Positions 3,777 through 40,342 of a DNA stretch of 64,000 bases are shown one piece after another. Made by a program: the position numbers and the translations under genes. Each line of letters opens with the position of its first letter. The first letter of the stretch is position 1. Source of the stretch: Arthrobacter sp. 35W. Lineage in GTDB: Bacteria; Actinomycetota; Actinomycetes; Actinomycetales; Micrococcaceae. Location of the stretch: assembly GCF_000482545.1 (NCBI RefSeq), contig NZ_KI519455.1, forward strand, positions 868,001-932,000, written 5' to 3'. A model generated the notes under the pieces. It did no database searches and was not told where the DNA came from. It saw nothing but the letters and a program-made list of their open reading frames with translations.

Positions 3777-4387
3777 GGGGCCAGGTCCAGCATCAGCACA
3801 TCGTGCTTGATCCAATCGAGAACGGCGTCCAGGCCCTCGTCCGTCTTGAGGTTGGTCATGCAGAACGGCTTGTCGCCGCGGAATTCCTTGGAGTCGGACG
3901 CCATTACGGACAGGTCCGCACCAACATAGGGGGCGAGGTCCGTCTTGTTGATGATGAACAGATCGCTCTTGATCATGCCCTGGCCGGCCTTGCGCGGGAT
4001 CTTCTCGCCCTGGGCCACGTCGATGATGTAGATGGAGAAGTCCACCAGCTCCGGGCTGAAGGTGGCGGAGAGGTTGTCGCCGCCGCTTTCGATGAAGATG
4101 ATCTGCAGGTCCGGGTGGCGGTCCTTGAGCTCCTGCACGGCGGCGGAGTTCATCGAGGTGTCCTCGCGGATGGCTGTGTGCGGGCAGCCGCCGGTCTCGA
4201 TGCCGATGATGCGGTCCAGCGGCAGGATGCCGTTGGCGGCCAGGATCTTGGCGTCCTCGATGGTGTAGATGTCGTTGGTGATGGCGGCCATCGAAATGGT
4301 CTCGCTCATGTGGCGGGTGATGCGCTCCACCAGCTGCGTCTTGCCGGCGCCTACGGGGCCGCCGACGCCGATTTTGATGGGTTCCAT
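3773..4387 (-). CDS. ureG: Urease accessory GTPase UreG
   Basis: SIMIBI-class GTPase that drives nickel insertion into urease. The P-loop GPVGAGKT is at residues 10-17, the metal-binding CPH ([13 protein letters not shown]) follows, and the NKTD guanine-specificity motif is present. The start at 4387 gives 204 residues, a normal length, and has AAGGAG nine bases upstream; a longer frame reaching 4513 runs into ureF and is discarded. It overlaps ureD at the 3' end. Confidence 0.96.
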
Positions 4388-4424
4388 GGTGTTCTCCTTG
4401 CTCCGGCCCGCGGGGGCCACTTCG

Positions 4425-5123
4425 TTAGGACATGAAGATGCGGGCGCGTTGGCGCTCATGCCGCATCTGGGCGATTTCCAGCCCGGGGGCCGCCGCACCG
4501 AATTCGCTCTCATCCAGCGCCGCGATGGCAGCCACGGCCTCCCCCACCACCGAATGGGCGCCGCGCAGCACGCGCTGCCCGGCGTTCTGCCCGATCGGGA
4601 TGGCGCGGATGGCGTTCTGCGTCAGCGAGGTGACGGTGGAAAAGAGGTAGGCGGCCACGAGTTCGGGCGCCGGGATGGACAGCGCCCGCCCCACGAGGCC
4701 GACGGCGATGGCCGGGTGCCCGGCGCAGCGGCCGTCGGCCACTCGGACGGCGTACTCGTCCAGCTCGGGGCCGGGGGCCACCTGCCGGGCGATGTCCAGC
4801 ATGCGCAGCCCCATCTTGGTGCCGGCCTCGCGGATCTCCCGCGGCAATGCGGCGGCCGCCAGCATGGCATCGAGCCGGAAGACGTCCTCTACCGGGCCCG
4901 CCTCCAGCGCCAGCCGGATGGCCAGGCCGTCGTTGTGGACCAGCTGGATGGCGACAAACTCCCCCAACCAGCGGGCAAAGTCCGCCTCGTTGGTGATCAG
5001 CCCGCGCTCCAGGTACATCTCCATGCCAAAGGAATGGCTGAAGGCGCCCGTGGGCAGGGCCGAGTCGCTGAGCTGCAGCAGGGCCAGCAGGTACGACGGC
5101 GGGCCCGCGGGAGTCTGTTCCAC
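4425..5123 (-). CDS. ureF: Urease accessory protein UreF
   Basis: All-helical UreF, which acts as the GTPase-regulating partner of UreG in nickel delivery. Diagnostic blocks are [19 protein letters not shown] near the N-terminus and [14 protein letters not shown] towards the C-terminus. The GTG start at 5123 lies four bases after the ureE stop. The 232-residue length is typical. It is followed after 37 bases by ureG. Confidence 0.95.
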
Positions 5124-5127
5124 GGCT

Positions 5128-5613
5128 CTAGTGCGTGTGGCCGGCGTGCCGGAACGGCACCGGCATCACGCGGTCCTGGCGGGTGTAGGGCACACCCACG
5201 TGGATGAGGTGGTCCACCACTGTGTGGTCGTACTGCACCACCATCACCTCGGCGCCGTACTCGCTGACGGCGTCGAAGAACTGGGCTTGCAGGTGCTTGT
5301 TGCCCAGGTTGTGGGCCACCGTGCCCATCTCCAGGATGCTGCGCGGGGCGATGACCAGCACATCGGTGGATTCCACCGACACCACGATGGCACCCTTTTC
5401 ATCGCGGAAGAGAATGTCGCCGTCGCGCAGATCGCCGGCGGTGCCGGCCGTCGCGTTCAACCGCAGACCCAGCTCGCGGCCGTGGTCCGTGGTGACGCGC
5501 TGGATCCGCTTCACCAGGGCGGCGCTGGGCAGCACCACCTTTTCCAGGTGCAAGCCCTCCAGCTCGCCGGAGGGCAGCTCGTGCACATTGCCAAGAACGT
5601 TTTCAACAATCAA
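5128..5613 (-). CDS. ureE: Urease accessory protein UreE (nickel metallochaperone)
   Basis: UreE binds nickel and passes it to the UreDFG-urease complex. The two-domain layout is visible: an N-terminal peptide-binding domain, then the metal-binding domain with the block AHNLGNKHLQAQF. The C-terminal tail is short and only modestly His-rich (FRHAGHTH), unlike the long His tails of some homologues. The start codon is TTG at 5613 with only a weak ribosome binding site; no better start exists, and the 161-residue product matches the family. Confidence 0.94.
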   Translation of the reverse strand: MIVENVLGNVHELPSGELEGLHLEKVVLPSAALVKRIQRVTTDHGRELGLRLNATAGTAGDLRDGDILFRDEKGAIVVSVESTDVLVIAPRSILEMGTVAHNLGNKHLQAQFFDAVSEYGAEVMVVQYDHTVVDHLIHVGVPYTRQDRVMPVPFRHAGHTH

Positions 5614-5662
5614 GAGGTACTGCTTTCACAAGAAATCGGCCGGCCCCTGGCGGGGTCCGGTT

Positions 5663-7371
<1,709 letters not shown>

Positions 7372-7375
<4 letters not shown>

Positions 7376-17155: not shown

Positions 17156-18898
17156 TTAGCCGATGGTGGTCAGCACCGTGTTGAGCACAACGGCGCCGCC
17201 GGCTGCGATGGCCGGCTCGCCCAGGATGCCGGCGCGGTGGGCGCTGACGGTGGTTTCCATCTTCATGGCCTCCAGCACCAGCACGGCCTCGCCCTCGGCG
17301 ACCTCGGTGCCCGGGGCCACCAGCCACTTCACCACGGAGCCGGCCATGGTGGCGCGCAGCTCGGCGGGGTCCTCGGCGTCGTCGTCATCCGTGTCGGCGA
17401 AGCGCACGCCGGCAGCCATGCCGCCGTTGCGCAGGCCGTCCAGCAGTTCGGCGGGCAGGCCCAGGGCCACGCGCTTGCCATCGAGCTCGATGCTGATGGT
17501 GCGGCGCTCCCCGGCGGGGGCCTCCACGCTGAACTCCGGGTCTGCGGCCAGGCGCTCGGCAAACTCGTTCTCGATCCAAGTGGTGTAGACGCCAAACTCT
17601 TCGGTCTTGGTGAAATCGGCGTCGCGGACCACGGCGCGGTGGAAGGGCAGCACGGTGGCGAGGCCGCCGATGGTGAACTCGGCCAGTGCACGGCGGGCGC
17701 GGCGCAGGGCCTGGGTGCGGTCGGCACCTGTCACCACCAGCTTGGCCAGCAGGGAGTCGAAGCTGCCCGGCACCACGGAGCCGGCGCGCACGCCCGAGTC
17801 GACGCGGATGCCCGGGCCGGTGGGCACGGTGAACTCGCCCACGGTGCCGGGAGAGGGCAGGAAGCCGCGGGCCACGTCCTCGGCGTTGATGCGGAACTCG
17901 AAGGAGTGGCCGCGGGGCTGCGGGTCCTCGGTCCAGGGCAGCGGCTCGCCGGCGGCGATGGAGAGCTGCACGGCCACCAGGTCGATGCCGGCGGTCTCCT
18001 CGGTGATGGGGTGCTCCACCTGCAGGCGGGTGTTGACCTCCAGGAAGGAGACGGTGCCATCGGCTGCCACCAGGTACTCCACGGTGCCGGCGCCGGTGTA
18101 GCCGGCCTCGCGGCAGATGGCCTTGGCGGAGGTGTAGATGCTCTCGCGCTGGGCGTCCGTCAGGAACGGGGCCGGAGCCTCTTCCACCAGCTTCTGGTGG
18201 CGGCGCTGCAGCGAGCAGTCGCGCGTGCCGACGACGGAGACGTTGCCGTGGGTGTCGGCCAGGATCTGCGCCTCCACATGGCGGGGGCGGTGCAGGAACT
18301 TCTCCACAAAGCACTCGTCGCGGCCGAAGGCGGCCTTGGACTCGCGCACGGCGGAGGCGAAGGCCTCCTCGATGGCGTCCATCTCCCAGACGACCTTCAG
18401 GCCTCGGCCACCGCCGCCGAAGGCGGCCTTGATGGCCACCGGCATGCCATGGATTTCGGCGAACGCGCGCACCTCGGCGGCGGAGGCCACCGGGCCGTCG
18501 CTGCCGGGGGCCAGCGGGGCGCCGGCACGGACGGCGATCTCGCGGGCGCTGACCTTGTTGCCTAGGGTGCGGATGGCGTCCGGGGACGGGCCGATCCAGA
18601 TGAGGCCGGCGTCCAGCACGGCCTGGGCGAAGTCAGCGTTCTCGGCCAGGAAGCCATAGCCGGGGTGGACGGCGTCGGCGCCGGAGGTGGCGGCGATGGC
18701 CAGCACCTTCTCCACGTTCAGGTAGGTGTCGGCCGGGCTGTTGCCGCCCAGCGCGTAGGCCTCGGTGACGGCGCCCACGTGGACGGCGTCGGCGTCGACG
18801 TCGGCGTAGATGCCCACCGACTCCAGCCCGGCATCGTCGCAGGAGCGGGCGATCCGGACGGCGATTTCGCCGCGGTTGGCAATGAGGACCTTGTGCAT
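17156..18898 (-). CDS. Biotin carboxylase / BCCP fusion (AccA3-like) of the pxp operon
   Basis: 580 residues. Biotin carboxylase occupies about 1-445: [14 protein letters not shown], the ATP-grasp loop [10 protein letters not shown], and [21 protein letters not shown] linker follows, then a C-terminal biotinyl domain with the biotinylated lysine K546 in EAMKMET. The enzyme would carboxylate its own biotin with ATP and bicarbonate. It is the third gene of the operon after pxpA and the pxpB-pxpC fusion (76-base gap), with AAGGAA before the ATG. No acyl-CoA carboxyltransferase subunit is nearby, so the partner may be the fused PxpB-PxpC protein, a homologue of the urea carboxylase transferase domain. 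A general acetyl-CoA carboxylase role is the alternative. Confidence 0.93.
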
Positions 18899-18974
18899 GG
18901 GAGTTTCCTTCGTGAAAAAGCTGTTGCTAGATCGACCTCAGTCAGATCTGGCCGGATGTGCGTGGGTGCCTGGA

Positions 18975-20555
18975 TCAGGCGGTGCCGGAGACCGGGACAA
19001 ACCGGATCCGGGATCCGGGCGGCAGCTGGGCGGCCTTGTCCAGATCAGCGGTGGCGACGACGCCGATGACGGGGTAGCCGCCCGTGACGGGGTGGTCGGA
19101 GAGGAACAACACGGGCTGGCCCGACGGCGGGACCTGGATGGCGCCGCGGACGGTGCCCTCGCTGGCCAGTTCGCCCTCGCGGCTGCGTTCCAGCGCATTG
19201 CCGGACAGGCGCAGGCCGATCCGGTTGGACTGCGGTGTGACTGTCCATTCCCGCTCCCCGAAGCCGGCGACGACGGCGTCGTCGAACCAGTCCTGGCGCG
19301 GGCCGGGGACCATGTGCAGGACCGTGACCTCGTCCGCGGCGGGGCCGGGCAGTTCCGGGCTGCCCACCACCGATGACGGCGGCGCCGGCACCACGGCCAG
19401 CGGCATTCCGGCCGCCAGCGGAGCCGGGCCGATGCCGGACATCGTGTCGGTGGAGCGGCTGCCCAGCACCAGCGGGACGTCGATCCCGCCGCGGACGCCC
19501 ACATAGCTGCGCAGTCCGGCGGAGGGGGTGCCCAGTTCCAGGACCTCCCCGGCAAGCAGGGCGAACGGCGCCAGCATCGGTACGTCGCGCACCTCGCCGT
19601 CGGGGTCGGTGATGGTGAGCCCAACGGCGGCACCGGCAACGGCCAGCACCTGGTCCGCGGCGGCGGCCAGCACCAGGCCGCCGTGCAGCACCTCGATGCC
19701 GGCGTGGCCCACGGGGTTGCCCGCCAGCCGGTTGGCCTGGCGCAGTGCGCCGCGGTCCATGGCGCCGGCGGTGGTGACGCCCAGATCGGCACTGCCGGGG
19801 CGGCCGAGGTCCTGGATGGTGGACTGCAGCCCGGGGCGGACCACCAGCAGGCCGGCGGCGTGGTTCTTGTCGACAGCCGGGGCTGCGGCAGCGGGGGCGG
19901 CGCTGGGGGCTGCGACGGTGGCGCGGACGGCGTTGAAGCGGACCTTGTTGCCCGGGCGGATGAGCGCGGGGCTGCTGCGGTCCAGATCCCACATCACGGC
20001 CTCGGTGCGGCCAATCAGCTGCCAGCCGCCGGGCGTCTGGCGCGGGTAGACGGCGGAGTAGGCGCCGGCCAGGGCCACGGCACCGGCGGGGACGGCGGTG
20101 CGCGGCGTGGAGCGGCGCGGCACCTCCAGGCGGGCATCGCCGCCGGCGAGGTAGGCGAAGCCGGGGGCGAAGCCGCCGAAGGCAGCGGTCCAGATGGTGC
20201 CGGTGTGCGCGGCGATGACGCCGTCGGCGCCCAGGCCGGTGAGCTCGCCGACGGCGGCCAGGTCCGCGCCGTCGTACACGACATCAATGGACACCTCGGT
20301 GGCGTCGGTGGCGGCCTCGCCGGACAGGTCCAGGGTGCGCACGTGGGCGGCGATCTGCCGGGCTTCGGCGGCGGTCTTGGCCGTCACCAGAACGGTGGAG
20401 GCCGCTGCCACCACGTCGATCTGGCCCGGCTGCGGACGCGACTGCAGGGCAGCCTGCAGGGTCAGCACGGTGGCCAGGGAGTCCAGTTCCACCAGGATGG
20501 CGCGGTCGCCCGCGGGGAGGATGGCGAGAATGCCTGCATCGGTCACGGCAGCCAC
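18975..20555 (-). CDS. 5-oxoprolinase subunits PxpB and PxpC fused in one protein
   Basis: 526 residues. The PxpB/KipI half (about 1-210) has HTGTIWTAAFGGFAPGFAYL, EVPRRSTPRTAVPAGAVALAG and TPGGWQLIGRT. An Ala/Pro-rich linker (about 211-235) leads to the PxpC/KipA half with GRPGSADLGVTTAGAMDRGA, SNRIGLRLSG and GQPVLFLSDHPVTGGYPVIG. All hallmark motifs are intact. With PxpA it forms the ATP-dependent 5-oxoprolinase that converts 5-oxo-L-proline to glutamate. The GTG start directly abuts the pxpA stop. The two halves are separate genes in most bacteria and in the second cluster of this window. Confidence 0.93.
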   Translation of the reverse strand: MAAVTDAGILAILPAGDRAILVELDSLATVLTLQAALQSRPQPGQIDVVAAASTVLVTAKTAAEARQIAAHVRTLDLSGEAATDATEVSIDVVYDGADLAAVGELTGLGADGVIAAHTGTIWTAAFGGFAPGFAYLAGGDARLEVPRRSTPRTAVPAGAVALAGAYSAVYPRQTPGGWQLIGRTEAVMWDLDRSSPALIRPGNKVRFNAVRATVAAPSAAPAAAAPAVDKNHAAGLLVVRPGLQSTIQDLGRPGSADLGVTTAGAMDRGALRQANRLAGNPVGHAGIEVLHGGLVLAAAADQVLAVAGAAVGLTITDPDGEVRDVPMLAPFALLAGEVLELGTPSAGLRSYVGVRGGIDVPLVLGSRSTDTMSGIGPAPLAAGMPLAVVPAPPSSVVGSPELPGPAADEVTVLHMVPGPRQDWFDDAVVAGFGEREWTVTPQSNRIGLRLSGNALERSREGELASEGTVRGAIQVPPSGQPVLFLSDHPVTGGYPVIGVVATADLDKAAQLPPGSRIRFVPVSGTA

Positions 20556-21314
20556 CTACGCAAAACTTTCAATGCTGACACCGGCGGTGCGCAGGGCCGC
20601 GTTGACGGCCTCGGCCATGGCGACGGCACCGGGGGTGTCGCCGTGCAGGCAGATGCTCTCGGCAGCCACCTCGATGACGGTGCCGTCGATGGCCGTGACC
20701 GTCCCCTGGGTCACCATTTGAAGGACGTGGGCGACGACGGCGTCGGTGCTGTGCAGCACGGCGCCGGGTTCGCGGCGGGAGACAAGGGTGCCATCGGCGT
20801 TGTAGGCGCGGTCGGCAAAGGCCTCCGCGACGGTGCGCAGGCCGGCAGCCTGGGCGGCACGCTGGATTTCGGAACCGGGCAGCACCATCAGCGGCAGGGT
20901 GGGGTCAACGGCCAGAATGGCTTCGACAACCGCCTGGGCCTGGGCCTTGTGGTGGACGATGGTGTTGTAGAGGGCACCGTGGGGCTTCACGTACTTCACC
21001 GAGGTGCCGGCGGCGCGGGCCATGCCCTGCACGGCGCTGATCTGGTAGATCACGTCGTCGGTGAGTTCCTGCGGGTCCATATCGAGGAAGCGGCGGCCGA
21101 ATCCGGCCAGATCGCGGTAGCCGGGGTGGGCCCCGACGGTGGTGCCGGCTGCGGCGGCGGCGGCGCAGGTGGCGCGGATTCCAATGGGGTCCCCAGCGTG
21201 GAATCCACAGGCCACGTTGACGCTGGAGACCTGGCGGATGATGGCGGCGTCGTCGCCGAACGTCCAGTTGCCGAAGGACTCCCCGACGTCGCTGTTTAGA
21301 TCAATGGTGGGCAT
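20556..21314 (-). CDS. pxpA: 5-oxoprolinase subunit PxpA (LamB/YcsF family)
   Basis: 252 residues starting [15 protein letters not shown], with the family blocks [27 protein letters not shown], the hallmark KPHGALYN, and [11 protein letters not shown]. An upstream in-frame ATG exists, but 21314 matches family N-termini. It is the first gene of the pxpA-pxpBC-biotin carboxylase operon. A GntR-type dyad lies 54 bases upstream of the start, pointing to control by the GntR regulator 10 kb away. Confidence 0.95.
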
Positions 21315-21368
21315 TGTGATCCCAGTCTCTAGGGGTGTGGTCACTCCAGAATGCCGCATTAATCCAAA

Positions 21369-31295: not shown

Positions 31296-31315
31296 GGGTC
31301 ATAAGAAACGCTTAT
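31296..31315. promoter_or_regulatory. LysR-type box upstream of the aminotransferase operon
   Basis: GGGTCATAAGAAACGCTTAT contains the dyad ATAAG-N5-CTTAT (T-N11-A type). A near-identical copy stands at 35381-35400 in front of lysR and the second pxp-like operon. A partial repeat GGTCTTATCC follows at 31332-31341 and may be the lower-affinity activation site. It lies 104 bases upstream of the ATG of the first structural gene. Confidence 0.65.
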
Positions 31316-31418
31316 CCGTCCACGCAGATTAGGTCTTATCCATTCGTTCACCGAGTCCCTACGCTCGAATGAATGAACCGTTCTTTGGTTGCACCCACTC
31401 AAGAACTTGGAAGAGACC

Positions 31419-32627
31419 ATGACTGACTTTGCGCCGGCGGAGCGAGTACTCCGCATCAAATCCTCCCCCAGCGTGGCCGCGGCCGCCCGGGTCCGCGAGC
31501 TCAAGGCGGAGGGGCGCCGGATCCTGGACCTGACCGTGGGCGAGCCGGATTTCGACACCCCCGCCCACATCAAGGACGCCGCCAGTGCGGCCATCATGGC
31601 CGGGGAGACCAAGTACACCTCCGTCAGCGGCACGCCGGCGCTGCAGCAGGCCATTCTGGGGCGGCTGGAACGGCACACCGGCATCCGGTACTCAGCGGAT
31701 GAAATCACCATCGGCGGCGGCGCGAAGCAGGTCATCTTTCTTGCGCTGATGGCCACTCTCGACGCCGGGGACGAGGTCATCATTCCCGCCCCCTACTGGG
31801 TCTCCTATCCCGACATGGTGCTGGCCAACGAGGGAACGCCAGTGATCGTGCCCTGCCCGGAGGACGCCGGTTTCAAGCTGACGCCGCAGGCCCTGCGCGA
31901 TGCCATCACGGAACGCACCACCTGGCTGATCCTCAACTCCCCCTCCAACCCGACCGGTGCCGTCTACAGCCCCGCCGAGCTGCGCGCCCTGGCGGAGGTG
32001 CTGGCTCAGTTCCCGCAGGTGTACGTGCTGACGGATGAGATCTATGACGAGGTCTACTTCGGCGAGGGCCGGATCTCCAGCCTCGTCGAGGTGGCGCCGG
32101 AACTGCGCGAACGCATCTTCCTGGTCAACGGCGTCTCCAAGGCCTACGCCATGACCGGCTGGCGGCTGGGGTACGGCGCGGGCCCCGCGGCCCTCGTTGG
32201 AGCGGTGAACAAGCTGCAGTCCCAGATGTCCTCCTGCCCCTCCTCGATCAGCCAGGCCGCGGCGGCCGCGGCGCTCTCCTCGGACCAGCAATTCGTCCGG
32301 GACAGCGTTGAGGTGTACCGCCGCCGCCGGGACGCCGCTGTGGCCGGGCTGAACACCATCGACGGACTCTCCTGCACCCCGGCGGAGGGGGCGTTCTACG
32401 CCTACGTCAACTGCTCCGGCGCCATTGGCAAGACGACGCCGGACGGCGTGCAGATCGGCACCGACGAGGACTTCACCCTCTACCTGCTGGATGCGGCCCT
32501 GGTCGCCACGATCCACGGCTCCGCCTACGGCCTCGGCCCGTACTTCCGCATCTCCTTTGCCACCAGCCTCGACGTTCTCGATGAAGCCATTGCTGCCATC
32601 GACAAGGCCGTCCGGGCCCTCAGCTAG
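31419..32627 (+). CDS. PLP-dependent aminotransferase, class I (aspartate-type)
   Basis: 402 residues, fold type I. Visible are LTVGEPDFDTPAHIK, the cofactor-contacting YWVSYPDM and NSPSNPTGAVYS, and the PLP lysine in NGVSKAYAMTGWRLGY. It would transaminate an amino acid to its 2-oxo acid. ATG 31419 has GGAAGAG upstream. It is the first gene of the operon with the aldolase and dehydrogenase behind it, under the LysR-type box at 31296. In context it probably produces a 4-hydroxy-2-oxo acid for the aldolase; this is inference. Confidence 0.92.
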   Translation: MTDFAPAERVLRIKSSPSVAAAARVRELKAEGRRILDLTVGEPDFDTPAHIKDAASAAIMAGETKYTSVSGTPALQQAILGRLERHTGIRYSADEITIGGGAKQVIFLALMATLDAGDEVIIPAPYWVSYPDMVLANEGTPVIVPCPEDAGFKLTPQALRDAITERTTWLILNSPSNPTGAVYSPAELRALAEVLAQFPQVYVLTDEIYDEVYFGEGRISSLVEVAPELRERIFLVNGVSKAYAMTGWRLGYGAGPAALVGAVNKLQSQMSSCPSSISQAAAAAALSSDQQFVRDSVEVYRRRRDAAVAGLNTIDGLSCTPAEGAFYAYVNCSGAIGKTTPDGVQIGTDEDFTLYLLDAALVATIHGSAYGLGPYFRISFATSLDVLDEAIAAIDKAVRALS

Positions 32628-32672
32628 CCCCCTCCAACCAGCCTAGCCTCCCCCAACCAGCAAGGACCCCTC

Positions 32673-33347
32673 ATGATCCACGTCAAGACCACCATCGAGC
32701 GCCCCACGGCCGACGTCGTCGGCCGCCTCGCCGCCTTCTCCTCGGCCACCATCCACGAGGCCCAGGGCCGCAAGGGTGCGCTGAACTCCAAGATCAAGCC
32801 GATCGACCGCACCATGTCCTTCTGCGGACCGGCCGTCACCGTCCGCTGCGCTCCGCAGGACAATCTGATGCTCCAGGTCGCCATCCACTATGCCCAGGCG
32901 GGCGACGTCGTGCTGGTCGCCGCTGGCGAGTACGAGGAAGCCGGCACCTTTGGCGACGTCCTAGGCAATGCGATGAAATCCAAGGGCATCGCCGCGATGG
33001 TCACCGACTCCGGCGTGCGCGACACCGCGGACCTGATCGAACTGGGCCTGCCGGTCTTCTCCGCCAATGTCTGCATCAAGGGCACCGTGAAGGAGACGCT
33101 TGGCCCGATCAACCACCCCGTGGTCTTCGGCGACGAGATCATCTACCCCGGCGACATCCTGCGCGGCGACGCCGACGGCGTGGTGGTCATCCGGCGCGAA
33201 GAGGCCGAGGAGGTCATTGCCCTGTCCCAGGCCCGCGACGACGCCGAGCGGGAGCTGATCAAGCTGTACCACGACGGCGGCACCACCATCGAGCTGTGCA
33301 AGCTCACCGACGTCTTGAAGGCCAAGGGCCTGTTGGTGGAAGACTAG
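32673..33347 (+). CDS. RraA-like aldolase (HMG/CHA aldolase, oxaloacetate decarboxylase)
   Basis: 224 residues of the RraA/LigK family. The metal and substrate loop is VTDSGVRDTADL with the catalytic Arg-Asp, followed by PGDILRGDADGVVVI and the N-terminal ATIHEAQGRKGALNSKIKP. The family cleaves 4-hydroxy-4-methyl-2-oxoglutarate or 4-carboxy-4-hydroxy-2-oxoadipate to pyruvate plus a second oxo acid and also decarboxylates oxaloacetate. It lies between an aminotransferase and a 2-hydroxyacid dehydrogenase, suggesting cleavage of a transaminated hydroxy amino acid. Confidence 0.88.
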   Translation: MIHVKTTIERPTADVVGRLAAFSSATIHEAQGRKGALNSKIKPIDRTMSFCGPAVTVRCAPQDNLMLQVAIHYAQAGDVVLVAAGEYEEAGTFGDVLGNAMKSKGIAAMVTDSGVRDTADLIELGLPVFSANVCIKGTVKETLGPINHPVVFGDEIIYPGDILRGDADGVVVIRREEAEEVIALSQARDDAERELIKLYHDGGTTIELCKLTDVLKAKGLLVED

Positions 33348-33379
33348 GCGGGACAACTCCGCACCCGGAAGGCACTTTC

Positions 33380-34360
33380 ATGGCGTCCCCCTCGTTCCTT
33401 GTCACCACAGCCCTGCCGGCCCCCGGTATGGACATCCTCGCGGCCGCGGGGTCCGTCACCCTCGTGGGCGGACCACTGCCTGCGGATGAACTGGCGGCGG
33501 CCTGTGCCTCCGGGCTGTACGACGTCCTGGTGTCCCAGCTTGGGGACGGACTGGATGCCGGTCTGCTGGAACGCGCGCAGTTGAAGGGTGTCTCCAACTA
33601 CGCCGTCGGCTACAACAACATCGACGTCGACGCCGCCACCCGCGCCGGGATCATGGTGGCCAACACCCCCGATGTGCTCACCGATGCCACGGCCGACATC
33701 GCCCTGCTGCTGATGCTGGGCACGGCACGCCGGGTGGTTGAGGCCGAGCACTACATGCGCTCCGGCCAGTACACAGGGTGGCATCCCGAGCTGCTGCTGG
33801 GCGCGGATGTTTCCGGCCGGACGTTGGGACTTGCGGGCTTCGGCCGGATTGCGCGCGCCACGGCCCGCCGGGCGCTGGGGTTTGGCATGGAGGTGCTCTT
33901 TTCACCACGGCCGCCCGGGGACCGTGTGGTCTCCGCGGAGGAGCTGGGCGAATTCGCCGGCAAGGTCCGCCAGGTCGAGTGGACCGAGCTGCTCGCCGGC
34001 AGCGATTTCCTCTCGCTCCATGTACCGCTGGCCGCTTCCACACACCATCTGATCGATGCGGCGGCCCTGCGGGCCATGAAGCCGAGCGCCATCCTGGTCA
34101 ACACCGCCCGCGGCCCGATCGTGGACGAGGACGCGCTGGTCCACGCCCTGCAGACCGGCGAGATCGCCGGAGCGGGGCTGGACGTCTACGAGAACGAGCC
34201 GGCCATGGCCGCCGGGCTGGCCGGGCTGCCCAACGCGATGCTGCTCCCCCACGTGGGCAGCGCGACGGTGTCGGTGCGTTCGAAAATGGCCAGGCTATGC
34301 GCCGAAAATGCCGTGGCGATGGCCCTCGGGCGCCGGCCGGCCCATCTGGTCAATCCCTAA
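33380..34360 (+). CDS. D-2-hydroxyacid dehydrogenase (glyoxylate/hydroxypyruvate reductase type)
   Basis: 326 residues. The NAD(P)-binding loop is GLAGFGRIARATARR, and the catalytic triad is Arg in NTARGPIVDEDAL, Glu in DVYENEP and His in LPHVGSAT. GYNNIDVDAATRAGI is the usual substrate-side block. It would reduce a 2-oxo acid such as glyoxylate or hydroxypyruvate. The third gene of the operon; GGAAGG precedes ATG 33380, which I chose over the upstream frame that overlaps the aldolase. Confidence 0.93.
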   Translation: MASPSFLVTTALPAPGMDILAAAGSVTLVGGPLPADELAAACASGLYDVLVSQLGDGLDAGLLERAQLKGVSNYAVGYNNIDVDAATRAGIMVANTPDVLTDATADIALLLMLGTARRVVEAEHYMRSGQYTGWHPELLLGADVSGRTLGLAGFGRIARATARRALGFGMEVLFSPRPPGDRVVSAEELGEFAGKVRQVEWTELLAGSDFLSLHVPLAASTHHLIDAAALRAMKPSAILVNTARGPIVDEDALVHALQTGEIAGAGLDVYENEPAMAAGLAGLPNAMLLPHVGSATVSVRSKMARLCAENAVAMALGRRPAHLVNP

Positions 34361-34388
34361 AGGCGTTTATCCACGGCCGTTAGTATTG

Positions 34389-35294
34389 CTATTCGCTGAG
34401 CATTTCCGCGAGCACTTCCTTTAATACCATCAATACGGCCGACGCCGCCTCGGAAAGCGGTTCGTGGTCCGGTGTGCACAGCGCAATTTTGGATTGCAGG
34501 GCCGGCCCCGTGATCCTCAGAACCTGGAAGTCTTCCTCATGGAACAGGGCGTCGGCTGCCGACTTGGGCAGGATGGTTGCGCCAAGATTGGCCCGCAGCA
34601 GGCGCGCCAACGATGGAACGGATTCCACCTCGCCCATGAGCTGAAGCTCCAGCCCGTTCTCGCCAAAGCCCTTCTCCACGATCTGGCGCAGCGTGTGGAT
34701 CTTCTCCGGGAGGAACAGGCGGTGGCTGGCAGCCTCCCGCAGGCTGATTTCGCCGTCGTCCGTGGCCACAGCGGCGTCGCGGTTGGCGACGAAGTACAGG
34801 TCCTCGACGATCACCGTGGTGAATTGAACGCCGTGGATCTCTCCCGGCTCATAGATCAGGGCCATGTCCAGGCGGCCGTTCTTGATGGCCTCGCTGAGCA
34901 CCCCGCCAAAGATCTCCGTCAGGTGGACCACGATGTCCGGGTACCTGGCGCTGACCTCGCTGATGATGCGCGGAGCAAGGCTGGAGGCCATGCTGTAGGG
35001 CGCAATGGCAATGGATACGCGGCCCGCGGGCGCTGCACCGGAGGTTTCGACATCCTGGCGGGCCTGCTCCACCTGGCGAAGGATCATCTGGGCGTGGCGG
35101 TACAGGGTGTGGCCGGCGGCCGTGGGTTCGACGCCCTTCTTGCTGCGGATCAGCAGTCGCTGTTTCAGCTCCGCCTCCAGCCCGGAGACCTGCTGGCTCA
35201 GGGCCGGCTGGGCAACGTGGAGGGCCGCGGCGGCCTTGGTGATGCTTCCGGAGTCAACGATCTTGACGAAGTAGGCCAGCTTCCTGGTATCCAT
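34389..35294 (-). CDS. LysR-family transcriptional regulator
   Basis: 301 residues. The N-terminal HTH spans roughly 17-48 (SITKAAAALHVAQPALSQQV), followed by the linker helix and a periplasmic-binding-like effector domain (SIAIAPYSMASSLAPRI, LEVE-type C-terminus). It resembles Nac/CynR-type regulators. ATG 35294 is preceded by GGGTGGTGG. It sits between two plus-strand operons, each with a copy of the same box, so it is the likely regulator of both, and its own promoter is divergent from pxpA2. Confidence 0.94.
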   Translation of the reverse strand: MDTRKLAYFVKIVDSGSITKAAAALHVAQPALSQQVSGLEAELKQRLLIRSKKGVEPTAAGHTLYRHAQMILRQVEQARQDVETSGAAPAGRVSIAIAPYSMASSLAPRIISEVSARYPDIVVHLTEIFGGVLSEAIKNGRLDMALIYEPGEIHGVQFTTVIVEDLYFVANRDAAVATDDGEISLREAASHRLFLPEKIHTLRQIVEKGFGENGLELQLMGEVESVPSLARLLRANLGATILPKSAADALFHEEDFQVLRITGPALQSKIALCTPDHEPLSEAASAVLMVLKEVLAEMLSE

Positions 35295-35380
35295 GTCCAC
35301 CACCCTTTCCCGGCACTGCCCTGGGGCAGGCGGCCGTAGCTCGATTCTATGCCGTGCGCCCCAGCGGAGCCGTCCGCCCC

Positions 35381-35400
35381 GGGTCATAAGGAATGCCTAT
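35381..35400. promoter_or_regulatory. LysR-type box in the lysR-pxpA2 intergenic region
   Basis: GGGTCATAAGGAATGCCTAT matches the copy at 31296-31315 at 17 of 20 positions, the three changes keeping the imperfect dyad ATAAG/C(T/C)TAT. It lies 86 bases upstream of lysR and 202 bases before pxpA2 in a 308-base gap. The rest of the gap holds the hairpin at 35502-35530; I see no gene there. Confidence 0.65.
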
Positions 35401-35501
35401 CGCATGACACAAATCGCGTCTTTGTGTGATGTGGACCGCAATGCCAGAATTTATCAATCGGAGAAAACGGAAATGGCCGGCAATGTCGACAATTTCCACC
35501 G

Positions 35502-35530
35502 GCGGGAAATCCCCCACCGGCATTTCCCGC
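35502..35530. promoter_or_regulatory. Leader hairpin upstream of pxpA2
   Basis: GCGGGAAAT and ATTTCCCGC form a nine-bp stem with an 11-base loop, 72 bases before the pxpA2 start codon. It may be an attenuator, an mRNA-stabilising leader or a second operator; the sequence does not decide. Confidence 0.4.
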
Positions 35531-35602
35531 ACCAATGAAGAATGTGCCCAAGGCATGATATTTGCCCGGCAATCGACCACCTCCGGATTAGGGGAAGCAG
35601 AC

Positions 35603-36388
35603 ATGAATCCAATGGTTGACCTCGTTGCGGATCTGGGCGAAGGATTCGGCACCTACTCCCTGGGCGATGACCATGCCCTCCTAGGCATTGTGTCGAGTGC
35701 AAACATTGCCTGCGGATTCCACGCCGGCGATCCGGACATCATGGACGCCACCGTGGCCGAATGCGTCAGCCGCGGTGTCGGCATCGGCGCGCACCCCAGC
35801 TTCCCGGACCTGCGCGGCTTTGGCCGCCGCACCATGGACCTCACCGCTGCCGAAGTCCGCACGGACATCCTCTACCAGCTGGGAGCCCTGGCCGCCTTTG
35901 CCGCTTTCCACGGCACCCGTGTGGCCCACCTGGCCCCGCACGGCCGGCTCGGCAACCTGGTCGGCACCCGCGCCGACTACGCCGCCGCCGTCGCCGATGC
36001 CGTCCTTGGCGTGGACCCCGGAATCATCATCGTGGCCCAGGACGGGGAATTGGCCCAGGCCGCCCGGCTCAGAGGCCTGCAGGTGGGCATCGTCGGCATC
36101 GCCGACAGGGCCTACCAGAGCGATGGCACCCTTGTCCCCCGCGGCCAGAGCGGCGCCGTCCTCCACGACCCCGCCGCCATCGCGGCACGGACGGTGCGGA
36201 TGGTTGTCGAGGGCCTCATCGACACCATCGACGGAACCGACATTTCCATCACCGCCGACACCATCCTCCTCCACGGCGACAACCCCGGGGCCGTTGATCT
36301 GGCCCGCCGGATCCGGACGGACCTGGAAGCCGCCGGTGTCACGATTGCCCCACTGGCCCGGGTTTTGGCCGCCAAGGCACAGGTCTAG
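35603..36388 (+). CDS. LamB/YcsF-family protein, divergent PxpA paralogue
   Basis: 261 residues with the family fold: [46 protein letters not shown] and TILLHGDNPGAV. The hallmark KPHGALYN of true PxpA, intact in the other copy of this window, reads APHGRLGN here: the Lys and the Tyr are lost. Together with equally altered PxpB and PxpC partners this suggests a different lactam or amide substrate rather than 5-oxoproline. ATG 35603 has GGGGAAG upstream. First gene of the pxpA2-pxpB2-pxpC2-MFS-SDR operon. Confidence 0.88.
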   Translation: MNPMVDLVADLGEGFGTYSLGDDHALLGIVSSANIACGFHAGDPDIMDATVAECVSRGVGIGAHPSFPDLRGFGRRTMDLTAAEVRTDILYQLGALAAFAAFHGTRVAHLAPHGRLGNLVGTRADYAAAVADAVLGVDPGIIIVAQDGELAQAARLRGLQVGIVGIADRAYQSDGTLVPRGQSGAVLHDPAAIAARTVRMVVEGLIDTIDGTDISITADTILLHGDNPGAVDLARRIRTDLEAAGVTIAPLARVLAAKAQV

Positions 36389-36392
36389 CGCG

Positions 36393-37115
36393 ATGTCACC
36401 GATGACGGCCGCAACAGTTGAGTTGCACGAGTCTGGAGACGCCGCACTGCGTGTCGTCGCCGTCTCGGACGACAGCGAGCGCAACTGGTCCACGGTCCAC
36501 CGGCTGGCCCAGTGGCTGGAGTTCGCCGGGGCCGAGGGCGTCCACGGGGCCGTCCCCACCTATGATTCGGTGCTGGTGGAATTCGATCCCTGCGCCACCT
36601 CGGCCCGGCAGGTGGGCGCCTATGTGCGCATGGGCCTTCGCCAGCTGGATTCCGATGGCATTCCGGCCCGCATTCCCAGGGAATTTGACGTCCCCGTCGT
36701 CTACGGCGGGCCGTACGGACCCGACCTGGAGTCCGTCGCGGCACAGCAGCAGCTGAGCCCCGAGGGGATCATCGCCCTGCACAGCGCCAAGACCTACGTC
36801 ATCCGCTGCCTCGGCGCTCCTGCCGGGTCGCCGATGATGGACGGGCCGGATTTTCCGTTCCCCGTGCCACGGCTGAAGGACCCCCGGCTGAGCGTGCCCG
36901 CGGGCGCCGTCGCCGTGGCGGGCCGGCAGGCAGTGATTGCCCCGGCCACCGCCCCCGGCGGCTGGTGCGTCATCGGACAGACCCCGCTGGGCCTGTTGAA
37001 CATCGCCACCGAGCCGCTGGTTCCCTACCTGCCGGGCGACGTCCTGCGCTTCCGCCCGATCCCCGCCGAGGAGTTTTCCGTCTACGCGGGCCAGGAACTG
37101 AGGGCAGTGCAGTGA
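36393..37115 (+). CDS. PxpB/KipI-family protein, divergent (allophanate hydrolase subunit 1-like)
   Basis: 240 residues. The C-terminal core is recognisable: HSAKTYVIRCLG, VPRLKDPRLSVPAGAVAVAG, APATAPGGWCVIGQTPLG. The GFxPGFxYL loop, intact in the fused paralogue of this window, is replaced by GAPAGSPMM. The start ATG 36393 is four bases after the pxpA2 stop. The product presumably pairs with the KipA-like protein encoded next. The altered loop supports a changed substrate; loss of activity cannot be excluded. Confidence 0.85.
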   Translation: MSPMTAATVELHESGDAALRVVAVSDDSERNWSTVHRLAQWLEFAGAEGVHGAVPTYDSVLVEFDPCATSARQVGAYVRMGLRQLDSDGIPARIPREFDVPVVYGGPYGPDLESVAAQQQLSPEGIIALHSAKTYVIRCLGAPAGSPMMDGPDFPFPVPRLKDPRLSVPAGAVAVAGRQAVIAPATAPGGWCVIGQTPLGLLNIATEPLVPYLPGDVLRFRPIPAEEFSVYAGQELRAVQ

Positions 37116-38125
37116 ACTCAACCCTGACCATCCTGCAGCCGGGAAACTCCGTGGTGACGGATCTGGGCCGCGTGCGCGGACCCCAGTATGGGCTCCCCGT
37201 GAACGGCGCACTGGACCAGTTCTCCGCCCGCGCCGCCAACATCCTGGCCGGCAATGACGACAATGCCGCCCTGATTGAAATCACCGCCCTCGACTTCCGC
37301 CTGCAGACCGACGCGGACCTGCTGGTGTCCGTGACGGGCGCCGCCGTGACGCTGACAGTGGGCGGGCGGGAATGCCAGCAATGGGAACCGGTGTCCGTCC
37401 GGGCCGGGGAAATCCTCGCCATCCGGGGCATGACCGGGGGCCTGCGCACCTACCTGGCCATCCGGGGCTCGGTCTCGGCACCCCTGCTGCTGGGCAGCTG
37501 CGCGCCGGACACGGTGGTCGGCTTCGGGCTCAGACTCCTCGAAGGCACACGCCTCACCGCCCTGACCAGCACCGGGCCCATCCGCCAGCCCTACTTCGAC
37601 CTGCCACTGTTCCGACTCGGCCTGGAGCGTCCCCAGTTCGGCACGGAGCTGGTGGTCGAGGTCACCGACGGACCTGACATCGAGGAGTTCGGCGGCTCGG
37701 CGGAGCTGCTCTTCAACTCCAGCTACACGATCAGCGCCAGAAGCAACCACATCGGACTGAGGCTCGGCGGCGAACTGCCGGAGCGGATGTCCAGCACTGA
37801 ACTGCTCTCCCGCGGCGTTCCCGTCGGCGCCATCGAGGTGCCATCACGGGATGAGCTGCTGGTGCTGCACCGGGGGCGCGGCGTCACGGCCGGATACCCC
37901 GTGCTCGCCGTCGTCACCAGCCAATCGCTCGACCTGCTGGCACAGGCGCGGCCCGGCCACACCGTCACCTTTCGAAAAACGTCAGTCGCCGCGGCAACCG
38001 CCGCCCACCGGGCCTCAATGCACCGGCTCGAATCCCTGCGAAGGGCCGTTGCCACGGTCTTTGGTCTGCTGGGAATCGGGGAACCGGCGCATTGGACCGA
38101 TCTCGCCCCCGCCATAGGAAGCTAA
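37112..38125 (+). CDS. PxpC/KipA-family protein, divergent (biotin-dependent carboxyltransferase-like)
   Basis: 337 residues. It keeps the family order: TILQPGNSVVTDLGRVRGPQ, VNGALDQFSARAANILAGN, SNHIGLRLGG. The usual GQPVxLxxDxxTxGGYP becomes DELLVLHRGRGVTAGYPVL, a marked change. The start is GTG 37112, overlapping the pxpB2 stop as GTGA, so subunits B and C are coupled. About 45 residues at the C-terminus are an additional basic helical tail (TAAHRASMHRLESLRRAVAT). Confidence 0.86.
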   Translation: MNSTLTILQPGNSVVTDLGRVRGPQYGLPVNGALDQFSARAANILAGNDDNAALIEITALDFRLQTDADLLVSVTGAAVTLTVGGRECQQWEPVSVRAGEILAIRGMTGGLRTYLAIRGSVSAPLLLGSCAPDTVVGFGLRLLEGTRLTALTSTGPIRQPYFDLPLFRLGLERPQFGTELVVEVTDGPDIEEFGGSAELLFNSSYTISARSNHIGLRLGGELPERMSSTELLSRGVPVGAIEVPSRDELLVLHRGRGVTAGYPVLAVVTSQSLDLLAQARPGHTVTFRKTSVAAATAAHRASMHRLESLRRAVATVFGLLGIGEPAHWTDLAPAIGS

Positions 38126-38181
38126 CAGCCCCTCGTCACCACCTGCACTCCTTTGCTACTCTGCCCCTAGTTAGGAAAATC

Positions 38182-39522
38182 ATGTCTACATCAACGCGCT
38201 CGGACACTGAGCAGCACTCGCGGCTCGACGGCCGACAGACCCGCAAGGTCGTAGCCGCTGGATGCGTCGGCATTTTCGTGGAACTCTACGACAACGGCAT
38301 CTTCGCCTTTATGGCCGGCACTCTGGCGCTGGTTTTCCTTGCGCCCGGCAACCCCGACAACGCCCTGCTGTTTGTCTTCGCCGGCTACGCCGTCTCCTTC
38401 TTCGTCCGGCCCCTAGGCGCGGTGGTCTGCGGCTATCTGGGCGACAGGATCGGCCGGCAGAAACTGCTGGTCTTTGTGATCATGCTGATCAGCATCGCGA
38501 CCGCCGGCATCGGTCTGCTGCCCACCTATGCGGCCATCGGCGTTGCGGCTCCGATCCTCATGGTGCTGATGCGCCTGCTGCAGGGCTTTTCCGTGGGCGG
38601 CGAGTCCGCTGGTGCGATGACCTTCCTGGCCGAGCACGCCCCCGAGGGCAAGCGCGGCATCATCACCTCCTATGCCCAGATTGCCTCCTTCGCCGCACTG
38701 CTGACGGGCACCATGGTTGCCTATGCCATGTCCCCCTGGCTGAACCAGGCAGCGATCGACGGCGGCGGCTTCGGCTCGTTCGCCTGGCGCATCCCGTTCC
38801 TGGTCGCCATTCCCATGGGCGTCATCGGCTGGTACATCCGCAAGGCCATCAGCGACACCCCCAACTTTGAGCGGCTCAAGGAGTCCGGCGGACTGTCCAA
38901 GAACCCGCTGAAGGAAGCCTTCTCCTCCCGCGAACACCGCCGCGCCATGCTGCTGGCCCTGTTCATCCCACTGATGAACGGCTCCGGCTACTACGTGCTG
39001 TTCTCCTACATGCCGACGTTCCTCAAGGGCAAGCAGTTGAACTTCAGCATTGGCGACGCCCTGATCGTCACCGCCTGCTCCCTCGTCGCCATCTGCATCG
39101 CGATCCCCTTCATGGGCGCCCTTTCGGACAGGATCGGCCGCAAGAAGGTCATCGCCGGATCCGCCATCGCCATGGCCATCGTCGGCATCCCGGCCTACGC
39201 CCTCATCACCACGGGCAACATGGCACTGGCCATCCTGGGTGCCTGCATCATGGCAGTCGTCTTCGCCGGCCACACCGCCGTCATCCACATCCTGATCGTG
39301 GAGCTGTTCCCCACCCGTGTGCGGTACTCCGCCTACGGCCTGGGCTACAACATCTCCTCGGCCCTCTTCGGCGGCACCGCGCCGCTGCTGATGACCTGGC
39401 TCATTTCCTCCACCGGCAACATCTACATGCCGGCGTTCTACGCCGTCGTCACGGCCCTGGGCACACTGATCGCAGTAAGCACCGTCAAGGACCGCGCCCA
39501 CGTGCCGCTCCGCGACGCCTAG
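38182..39522 (+). CDS. MFS transporter, metabolite:H+ symporter (MHS) type
   Basis: 446 residues, 12 transmembrane helices. MHS hallmarks: GDRIGRQKLLVFVI after helix 2, LLQGFSVGGESAGAMTFLAEHAPEGKRG, and the C-terminal IVELFPTRVRYSAYGLGYNIS. Relatives carry organic acids, betaine, shikimate or citrate into the cell. It sits inside the LysR-controlled operon and is therefore the probable uptake system for the pathway substrate. AGGAAA precedes ATG 38182. Confidence 0.92.
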   Translation: MSTSTRSDTEQHSRLDGRQTRKVVAAGCVGIFVELYDNGIFAFMAGTLALVFLAPGNPDNALLFVFAGYAVSFFVRPLGAVVCGYLGDRIGRQKLLVFVIMLISIATAGIGLLPTYAAIGVAAPILMVLMRLLQGFSVGGESAGAMTFLAEHAPEGKRGIITSYAQIASFAALLTGTMVAYAMSPWLNQAAIDGGGFGSFAWRIPFLVAIPMGVIGWYIRKAISDTPNFERLKESGGLSKNPLKEAFSSREHRRAMLLALFIPLMNGSGYYVLFSYMPTFLKGKQLNFSIGDALIVTACSLVAICIAIPFMGALSDRIGRKKVIAGSAIAMAIVGIPAYALITTGNMALAILGACIMAVVFAGHTAVIHILIVELFPTRVRYSAYGLGYNISSALFGGTAPLLMTWLISSTGNIYMPAFYAVVTALGTLIAVSTVKDRAHVPLRDA

Positions 39523-39586
39523 GCCGCACCTCCCTCCTTCGGCCCCACCGGCCGCCCCCTTTCCACCCTCGTTCTTGGAGACCCAC

Positions 39587-40342
39587 ATGCCTTTTTCCGA
39601 CTACACCACAGCCCTCGTCACCGGCGCCTCGACCGGAATGGGCGCGGCGATTGCCGAGCACCTCACCAAGCGCGGCCTGACCGTCCACGCACTCGCCCGC
39701 AATGAGGAGCGCCTGGCCGATCTGGCCGACCGCACCGGAGCCATTGCCCACGTCGTCGACCTCACCGACACGGCCGCCCTGACGGCGTCCCTGGCCGGCC
39801 TCAAGGTCGATGTCCTGGTCAATTGCGCCGGCGTCTCGCGCCCCGGCAACATCCTCGATTCCTCCGAGGAGGACATCGACGAGCTTGTGGACGTGAACCT
39901 GCGTGGACTGCTGCACCTGACCCGACTGGTCCTCCCCGGCATGGTGGAGCGGGACAGTGGCCACGTGGTGAACATCAGCTCGATCGCCGGCATCTACAAC
40001 TTCTACGGCCACACGGTCTACCACGCGACCAAGGCCGCTGTGCACCAGATCTCCCGGCAGCTGCGCAACGACACGGTGGGCAAGCGCATCCGCGTCACCG
40101 AGATCTGCCCGGGGCGTGTGGAGACGGAGATCTTCGGCCGGAACATGGGCGGCACCCCGGAGGCCCTCGATGAGGCGTGGAAGACCTACTACGAGGGCTA
40201 CGAGTCGCTGACCACCGACGACATCGTCAACGCCCTGGACTTTGCCATCGCGGCCCCGGCCCACGTGAACATGGGGATGATGGAAATCATGCCCACCTTC
40301 CAGGTCCCCGGCGGGCTGGTCTTCGACAGGCGCGAGGGCTGA
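39587..40342 (+). CDS. SDR-family oxidoreductase
   Basis: 251 residues. Nucleotide-binding GASTGMG near residue 13, NCAG, the Ser of NISSIAG, and YHATK as active site. It belongs to the YdfG/3-hydroxy-acid dehydrogenase-like classical SDRs (ICPGRVETEIFG). TTGGAG lies before ATG 39587. Last gene of the operon; it could oxidise a hydroxyl group of the substrate or of a cleavage product. A terminator hairpin follows. Confidence 0.92.
   Translation: MPFSDYTTALVTGASTGMGAAIAEHLTKRGLTVHALARNEERLADLADRTGAIAHVVDLTDTAALTASLAGLKVDVLVNCAGVSRPGNILDSSEEDIDELVDVNLRGLLHLTRLVLPGMVERDSGHVVNISSIAGIYNFYGHTVYHATKAAVHQISRQLRNDTVGKRIRVTEICPGRVETEIFGRNMGGTPEALDEAWKTYYEGYESLTTDDIVNALDFAIAAPAHVNMGMMEIMPTFQVPGGLVFDRREG

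Follow-up and report, generated by a model that had tools for sequence, protein, structure and literature searches.

A NAC-type LysR regulon in Arthrobacter sp. 35W and its relatives: a candidate route from a glutamate-derived lactam to pyruvate and L-idonate

A 64,000-nucleotide stretch of the Arthrobacter sp. 35W genome (contig NZ_KI519455.1, positions 868,001 to 932,000; G000:C2:868001-932000 in our genome set, hereafter the window) carries a cluster in which genes for three Pxp-like lactamase subunits, an aminotransferase (AT), an RraA/LigK-type pyruvate aldolase and a short-chain dehydrogenase/reductase (SDR) are arranged around a LysR-family regulator. The gene set of this module, its operator, its conservation, the residues of its aldolase and the idonate-type genes that recur beside it are computed observations. 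We give a probability of roughly 0.4 to a reading in which the module would open a lactam, reduce a ketone, transaminate the product and cleave it by retro-aldol reaction to pyruvate and a 2-keto-hexonate, which would leave through L-idonate. The parts belong to known families; the combined pathway looks undescribed.

Gene set and its conservation

The genome is 4.66 Mb in size, with Arthrobacter and its kin as closest matches. Two plus-strand operons, AT-RraA-dehydrogenase (31419-34360) and PxpA-PxpB-PxpC-MFS-SDR (35603-40342; MFS, major facilitator superfamily), stand on either side of a minus-strand lysR gene, with the PxpA, PxpB and PxpC homologues encoded side by side. In window coordinates, the features are as follows.

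31297..31316, plus strand: operator 1, GGTCATAAGAAACGCTTATC, with its ATA-N9-TAT core at 31301-31315, 5′ of the AT gene
31419..32627, plus strand: AT of the aspartate-transaminase type (NF004769, above cut-off)
32673..33347, plus strand: RraA/LigK-type pyruvate aldolase (NF006731, above cut-off; residues align with 3noj)
33380..34360, plus strand: D-2-hydroxyacid dehydrogenase, a non-core gene, read as a putative 2-ketoaldonate (2-keto-L-gulonate) reductase
34389..35297, minus strand: NAC-type LysR-family regulator (NF008410, 318.3 bits against a cut-off of 309)
35382..35401, plus strand: operator 2, GGTCATAAGGAATGCCTATC, with its ATA-N9-TAT core at 35386-35400, between lysR and pxpA
35603..36388, plus strand: PxpA-like lactamase subunit (NF003814, above cut-off)
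36393..37115, plus strand: PxpB-like subunit (above the Pfam and below the NCBIfam cut-off)
37112..38125, plus strand: PxpC-like subunit (above the Pfam and below the NCBIfam cut-offs)
38182..39522, plus strand: MFS importer of the metabolite/H+ symporter family (50% identity to the MFS protein beside the third Pxp set of the genome)
39587..40342, plus strand: SDR, a core gene, proposed side-chain ketone reductase

Family searches upheld the families named in a preliminary description of this DNA, which had listed the dehydrogenase with the other genes; it is not a conserved member, and the SDR is. The AT passes a curated aspartate transaminase model and the LysR protein that for the nitrogen-assimilation regulator NAC, while the RraA protein passes the 4-carboxy-4-hydroxy-2-oxoadipate aldolase/oxaloacetate decarboxylase model NF006731 (219.4 vs 179) and falls below the narrow LigK equivalog TIGR02798 (194.5 bits against a cut-off of 304.5).

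A scan of 84,980 species genomes returned 146 stretches, 97 of which were confirmed; the best 80 of these correspond to 79 distinct loci, in which gene calls came from a simple composition rule and include false frames. An AT match was present in 79/79 loci and lay within 600 bases of the RraA gene in 75/79. The Pxp genes, PxpA included, were found in 71, a LysR/NAC regulator in 73 and the SDR in 57, with all of them together in 56 (Micrococcaceae and the like, 40/59; Streptomyces, 10/12; Alphaproteobacteria, 5/5; other actinobacteria, 1/3). By our own reading, the loci without some part are short contigs or end inside the module, except L113, a full-length locus without Pxp, SDR and regulator. 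Thirteen plasmid loci (twelve annotated and one, L122, unannotated) add Paracoccus, Burkholderia, Bradyrhizobium, Rahnella, Variovorax, Rhizobium (two), Pararhizobium, Phyllobacterium, Agrobacterium, Terrarubrum, Shinella and Microvirga. The module thus spans Micrococcaceae, Streptomyces and alphaproteobacteria and, through the plasmid loci, betaproteobacteria, so the conservation of the neighbourhood that had been supposed is borne out far beyond the genus. No aldolase relative was found among viral contigs.

Twenty-two sampled module RraA proteins from both phyla (the window and 21 related loci, with L119, L120, L121, L122 and L130 left out) form one clade against 12 non-module RraA proteins of the window's order, taken from 12 of 26 non-module loci (support 100/100). 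A biotin carboxylase match accompanies the module in 5/5 alphaproteobacterial scan loci and 11/13 plasmid loci (16/18 proteobacterial loci), as well as in the actinobacterial L097, and 17 proteobacterial module PxpA proteins stand apart from 10 actinobacterial ones (support 99/96, with long-branch warnings). Lactam opening therefore appears constant in kind and differing in its machine. The importer is an MFS protein in most actinobacterial loci and a tripartite ATP-independent periplasmic (TRAP) or polar-amino-acid ATP-binding cassette (ABC) system in Proteobacteria.

Several loci have peculiarities of their own. A PotD-like ABC importer is inserted between lysR and pxpA in some Micrococcaceae (L036, L038; binding protein in 17/82 loci), which suggests that the substrate has another way into these cells. 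Under the title Sporosarcina beigongshangi, one contig (L058) has an Arthrobacter-like module (71-87% identity), which may reflect a misnamed or mixed record or a transfer of the module. The module SDR occurs in two or three copies per genome in G423, G475 and G526 (genus labelled g11), and the Sinomonas locus L067 has a second, partial module copy. In Burkholderia pyrrocinia P10, a pxpA gene is up with peanut root exudate (log2 fold change 1.02; PMC10061817); it may or may not belong to a module such as that of B. pyrrocinia BX1 (L119).

A shared operator

The preliminary description had reported two plus-strand operons flanking lysR, both carrying a nearly identical 20-base box, and the coordinates and the box match confirm this. 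The two boxes are identical at 17/20 positions, and box 1, allowing up to 5 substitutions, has zero further matches on either strand of the window. In degenerate form (17 fixed bases, up to 2 mismatches), the box has only two sites in the 4.66-Mb genome, and the reversed-pattern control has 0. The short palindrome ATAAG-N5-CTTAT (up to 1 mismatch) is unspecific, giving 7 genome sites (2 of them here) against 14 for its reversed control; because it finds fewer sites than that control, only the longer box is specific.

We then counted the ATA-N9-TAT core, which we take to be the form of NAC sites, in 63 related loci (Micrococcaceae except L096, Propionicimonas, and L058, titled Sporosarcina). 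Among testable loci, it lies 5′ of AT in 60/60, of PxpA in 55/58 and of lysR in 54/59, against 67/1260 random 300-base stretches drawn from these loci, a count in which true sites may be included. Upstream of AT, the perfect palindrome ATAAG-N5-CTTAT occurs in 58/61 loci at a near-fixed distance (random stretches, 25/1260), its ATAAG and CTTAT arms kept around a variable centre. The palindrome upstream of PxpA is imperfect, with 2 mismatches in 33, 3 in 24 and 4 in 1 of 58 loci. The site form extends beyond these loci in part: ATA-N9-TAT lies within 300 bases 5′ of the regulator in 8/12 proteobacterial loci tested, several sites being near-identical to those of the window and the site in some rhizobia reading ATAAGCAACGGTTAT or ATAAGCAAGCCTTAT; it is absent within 300 bases of the regulator in 7/7 Streptomyces loci tested and in L101, L111, L118 and L119.

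With a regulator match to NAC and ATA-N9-TAT at both operons, the module has the features of a NAC/LysR-type regulon. The box is, as judged from these counts, a conserved operator rather than a chance repeat, and a common predicted operator at both operons agrees with the co-regulation of the two halves that had been claimed for them.

Substrate class and outlet of the proposed pathway

We infer every substrate, every product and the order of the reactions from the protein families. Under a single NAC-type LysR regulator, the module would form a catabolic, nitrogen-yielding regulon importing a glutamate-derived γ-lactam with a 4-hydroxyl group and a polyhydroxy side chain. PxpABC would open the lactam at the expense of ATP, the SDR would reduce a ketone of the side chain and the AT would convert the glutamate part to a 4-hydroxy-4-substituted 2-oxoglutarate. 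Retro-aldol cleavage by RraA would then release pyruvate and a 2-keto-hexonate, most likely 2-keto-L-gulonate, which the D-2-hydroxyacid dehydrogenase would reduce to L-idonate; from there, L-idonate 5-dehydrogenase would give 5-ketogluconate, 5-ketogluconate reductase gluconate and gluconokinase 6-phosphogluconate. This chain has a place for each conserved gene and for the idonate-type neighbours.

The lactam is indicated first by the transporters. The one TRAP receptor tested, that of L109 (the Paracoccus version, from a metagenome-assembled genome, MAG), has 2pfz and 2pfy as its closest solved relatives, which we take to be Bordetella DctP7 and DctP6. The available text of PMC13274462 describes structures of DctP6 and DctP7 solved in complex with 5-oxoproline. 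Two ABC binding proteins had generic amino-acid-binding structure matches only. The receptor match and the kinship of the MFS importer to a Pxp-linked MFS protein point to a pyroglutamate-like lactam, and the lactam substrate postulated earlier is consistent with this as well as with the presence of PxpABC. If that lactam were 5-oxoproline itself, PxpABC would yield glutamate, the AT would move its nitrogen, and RraA and the SDR would be side enzymes. The PxpA protein does pass the 5-oxoprolinase subunit model, and the regulator is of a nitrogen-assimilation type, yet the genome holds two further Pxp sets, and the Corynebacterium glutamicum 5-oxoproline system is described as a transporter and pxpABC under a GntR repressor, the word ‘aldolase’ appearing nowhere in the available text (PMC13274462); we regard plain 5-oxoproline use as highly unlikely.

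Turning to the aldolase, RraA/LigK-type enzymes have their active site between subunits, and members of the HMG/CHA aldolase family cleave 4-hydroxy-4-substituted 2-oxo acids (tertiary alcohols) with a C4 carboxylate. The best solved-structure match of the window RraA is the HMG/CHA aldolase 3noj, and its D95, R116, D117 and E192, invariant in 12 sequences, align with 3noj D102, R123, D124 and E199, which we take to be the catalytic residues. The RraA/LigK-type assignment made earlier is supported by this match and by the residues kept, which are those of a predicted aldolase; the enzyme may act by oxaloacetate decarboxylation. The same family background and 3noj match would also suit a small 4-substituted lactam such as 4-hydroxy-4-methylpyroglutamate, from which the aldolase would give two non-sugar 2-oxo acids. 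That would leave the idonate-type genes unexplained, and we rank it as the least likely of the explanations considered here.

These idonate-type genes, which take their names from PLSDB annotation and best NCBIfam models, bear on the outlet. At least two 2-ketoaldonate-reductase-, gluconate-5-dehydrogenase-, L-idonate-5-dehydrogenase- or gluconokinase-like genes occur in 26/95 module loci and in 0/20 control regions. The module set contains near-copies (judging by length and place, L038 and L074 come from one contig) as well as short loci, and the controls were taken at preset rather than randomly drawn positions in four genomes. Among the 20 loci examined, 11, all of them Micrococcaceae, have the first idonate-type gene 46-80 bases 3′ of the SDR on the same strand. 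In Sinomonas L054 it is divergent from the AT, and in Streptomyces L105 the idonate-type genes adjoin the dehydrogenase and the regulator; other arrangements occur in Streptomyces L139, MAG L099, Roseibium L101, Phaeobacter L111, Paracoccus L118, Pararhizobium L124, Microvirga L130 and Burkholderia L119/L152.

An even sample of 245 Micrococcaceae genomes, compared by eye for overlaps and distances, includes 18 with the module SDR. An L-idonate-dehydrogenase-like gene of the kind found at L066 occurs in 16/18 of these and in 65/227 of the others (Fisher, 6e-7), and lies within 11 kb of the SDR in 9/18 genomes (binomial, 1.5e-15), where chance would give ~0.1 (23 copies, ~4.4 Mb); both tests are uncorrected for kinship and multiple SDR copies. 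The genome of strain 35W has a reductase, a gluconate-5-dehydrogenase-type SDR and an L-idonate-dehydrogenase-like gene on another contig (C1:1249194-1252937).

Operators were also sought before idonate-type genes in the 20 loci examined. The perfect box in front of the L054 L-idonate dehydrogenase was dismissed as a second operator, since it has the same letters as the AT operator on the opposite strand and so is a shared divergent site. IdnO is preceded by weaker sites, perhaps chance matches, in L101 and L130, and in the remaining 17 loci no operator precedes any idonate-type gene. Two side observations concern similar genes: a zinc dehydrogenase just before the window (G000:C2:865605-866597), adjoining an MFS gene, is 45% identical to a Paracoccus L-idonate 5-dehydrogenase, and transhydrogenase genes adjoin the L-idonate dehydrogenase in Burkholderia and Microvirga (L130 20033-23045).

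The pathway first proposed for this cluster ran from 4-hydroxypyroglutamate through 4-hydroxyglutamate and 4-hydroxy-2-oxoglutarate to pyruvate and glyoxylate, the dehydrogenase then reducing glyoxylate. Its lactam opening and aldolase type have held up, and a 4-hydroxyglutamate skeleton suits Pxp, AT and aldolase alike; its glyoxylate outlet has not, and the SDR, which had been given no role, would leave this route with a conserved gene to spare. Queries with E. coli Gcl, Hyi, GlxR, GlxK, GlcB and GlcD matched in 0/95 loci at ≥38% identity (distant ones may escape), against the 26/95 with idonate-type genes, and glyoxylate metabolism was rejected as the outlet on this count. MAG locus L099 does hold a hydroxypyruvate-isomerase-like gene, read by eye, and the best solved-structure matches of the window dehydrogenase are glyoxylate reductases, a probable 2-ketogluconate reductase ranking fifth. 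On balance, we consider the glyoxylate route unlikely.

As both kinds of reductase are among the structure matches, sequence alone does not decide the substrate of this dehydrogenase, which may equally be a 2-ketoaldonate reductase. It is 73% identical to a Specibacter protein in the same place, 47% to one of a Burkholderia module, 43% to the enzyme that adjoins the Streptomyces module and 38% to GhrB of E. coli, which presumably reduces both glyoxylate and 2-ketoaldonates; identities to idonate-linked reductases are 36% (Paracoccus), 35% (Microvirga) and 31% (Arthrobacter). The Streptomyces module dehydrogenase has a paralogue (64%) adjoining an L-idonate-dehydrogenase-like gene in two Streptomyces genomes. 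We do not count the dehydrogenase as a core enzyme, because the closest module loci have no such gene in this position and encode different 2-hydroxyacid dehydrogenases elsewhere.

Several results weigh against the proposed lactam-to-idonate chain. The window itself has no idonate operon, and that on C1 has no ATA-N9-TAT in the ~600 bases upstream. Fewer than two idonate-type genes lie in the available stretch of 69/95 module loci, 9/10 Streptomyces loci have no IdnD or IdnO within 1.5 kb past the dehydrogenase, and the names rest on similarity, only the gluconokinase and one SDR among seven Micrococcaceae/Paracoccus proteins exceeding the curated cut-off. In the plasmid loci, the AT is 58-63% identical to that of the window in four and 44-48% in nine, and RraA is 60-64% identical in seven, 49% in one and only 32-36% in four (L119, L120, L122 and L130), with no RraA match found in L121; because identities are this low in several plasmid loci, the AT and RraA steps are not strictly orthologous everywhere. 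The SDR, at 54-61% in 13/13 plasmid loci, would be the most constant part, with AT and RraA constant in kind.

A further difficulty is that AT and RraA pass the aspartate transaminase and aldolase/oxaloacetate decarboxylase models, which makes a plain aspartate route possible: Pxp would split an amide or imide to give aspartate, the AT would form oxaloacetate, RraA would decarboxylate it to pyruvate and the idonate genes would serve the other half. The phosphoenolpyruvate carboxylase gene next after RraA in Burkholderia would fit such a route. Against it, the pyroglutamate-type TRAP receptor (one tested) suits a lactam better, the SDR has no role, and PxpABC is, to our knowledge, associated with the glutamate lactam and not with aspartate amides; we judge it distinctly unlikely. 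The Burkholderia phosphoenolpyruvate carboxylase gene lies directly after RraA at L119 13459-16251.

A candidate plant substrate and related systems

If 2-keto-L-gulonate is indeed released, a hexonate of the L-series suggests that the carbon chain derives from ascorbate. Ascorbalamic acid, found in plants, has a bond between C2 of ascorbate and the β-carbon of alanine, and it is possibly the best-fitting plant compound for the lactam-to-idonate chain. Tentatively, and as a doubtful identification, we propose that the regulon degrades ascorbalamic acid, whose lactam form would be a 4-hydroxy-4-acyl-pyroglutamate, to pyruvate and 2-keto-L-gulonate. Once the lactam was opened, the C3 ketone reduced and the product transaminated, retro-aldol cleavage would yield 2-keto-L-gulonate that keeps the C4 and C5 configuration of ascorbate. 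This would account for L-idonate, not glyoxylate, genes beside the module. Agropinic acid is also a pyroglutamate lactam; opines of this kind were set aside, as neither aldolase nor SDR would be needed. A review places the conversion of 2-keto-L-gulonate to L-idonate, and of this to 5-keto-D-gluconate, on the plant ascorbate-to-tartrate route (PMC11066805), and ascorbalamic acid, C9H13NO8, figures as a metabolomics assignment in the available parts of PMC9229034, where it is marked putative, and PMC3976912. In the literature searched, from which subscription journals largely fell outside, we found no description of this gene set or of bacterial use of ascorbalamic acid.

The regulon is spread over soil actinobacteria, rhizobia, Burkholderia, Variovorax and marine roseobacters, a range that suggests one natural substrate common to all, which the literature searched does not link to genes. 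Were the ascorbalamate assignment true, the regulon would offer a genetic handle on the fate of ascorbate adducts in soil and rhizosphere, a means by which bacteria degrade a C-linked ascorbate adduct and a new use for LigK-type aldolases, on 2-keto sugar acids; ATP-only and biotin-type lactamases taking the same step in different phyla would allow a natural comparison within one pathway. Even with a different substrate, the lactamase-SDR-aminotransferase-aldolase-idonate chain makes the question testable with few compounds.

Other parts of the genome contain related genes. Another Pxp set (window 17156-21359, minus strand) encodes PxpA, a fused PxpB/PxpC-like protein and a biotin-carboxylase-like protein; AT, RraA and the module SDR have no match in window 1-22000, around that set. 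The third (L137 5028-12168; G000:C1 ~1264500-1271700), ~12 kb from the idonate-type operon of the same genome, has an MFS protein 50% identical to that of the window, an RraA-like protein (34%) and an AT closest to the GntC model, and is a possible paralogous module for a related compound. A urease-like operon with a nickel-type transporter, read by eye, lies at window ~1825-7375 on the minus strand.

Among known systems, caprolactam degradation in Pseudomonas jessenii reportedly has an aminotransferase step after lactam opening, and we know of no aldolase step in it. Its lactamase, CapAB, belongs to a family other than that found here; ATP-dependent lactam opening is common to both (available text of PMC6061476 and PMC8453981). 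The PxpABC 5-oxoprolinases of C. glutamicum (pxpTABC), Bacillus subtilis and E. coli are closer, as PxpA, PxpB and PxpC are encoded together there as here. The C. glutamicum and B. subtilis systems include an importer, according to the parts of PMC13274462 available, which in the window is an MFS protein; the module differs in its added AT, aldolase and SDR, in its NAC-type LysR regulator and in the biotin carboxylase of the proteobacterial loci. With the 3noj/LigK aldolases, the module RraA shares its family and the presumed catalytic residues, whereas it fails the narrow LigK model, lies in a clade separate from 12 non-module relatives and has Pxp, AT and SDR as partners. Finally, homologues of 2-ketoaldonate reductase, L-idonate 5-dehydrogenase, 5-ketogluconate reductase and gluconokinase are shared with the L-idonate pathway (E. 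coli idnD, idnO, idnK), and the fungal glucuronate route, in the portion of the source available, also runs through 2-keto-L-gulonate and L-idonate; unlike these known routes, L-idonate metabolism here would apparently be fed by aldol cleavage, not by uptake or from glucuronate.

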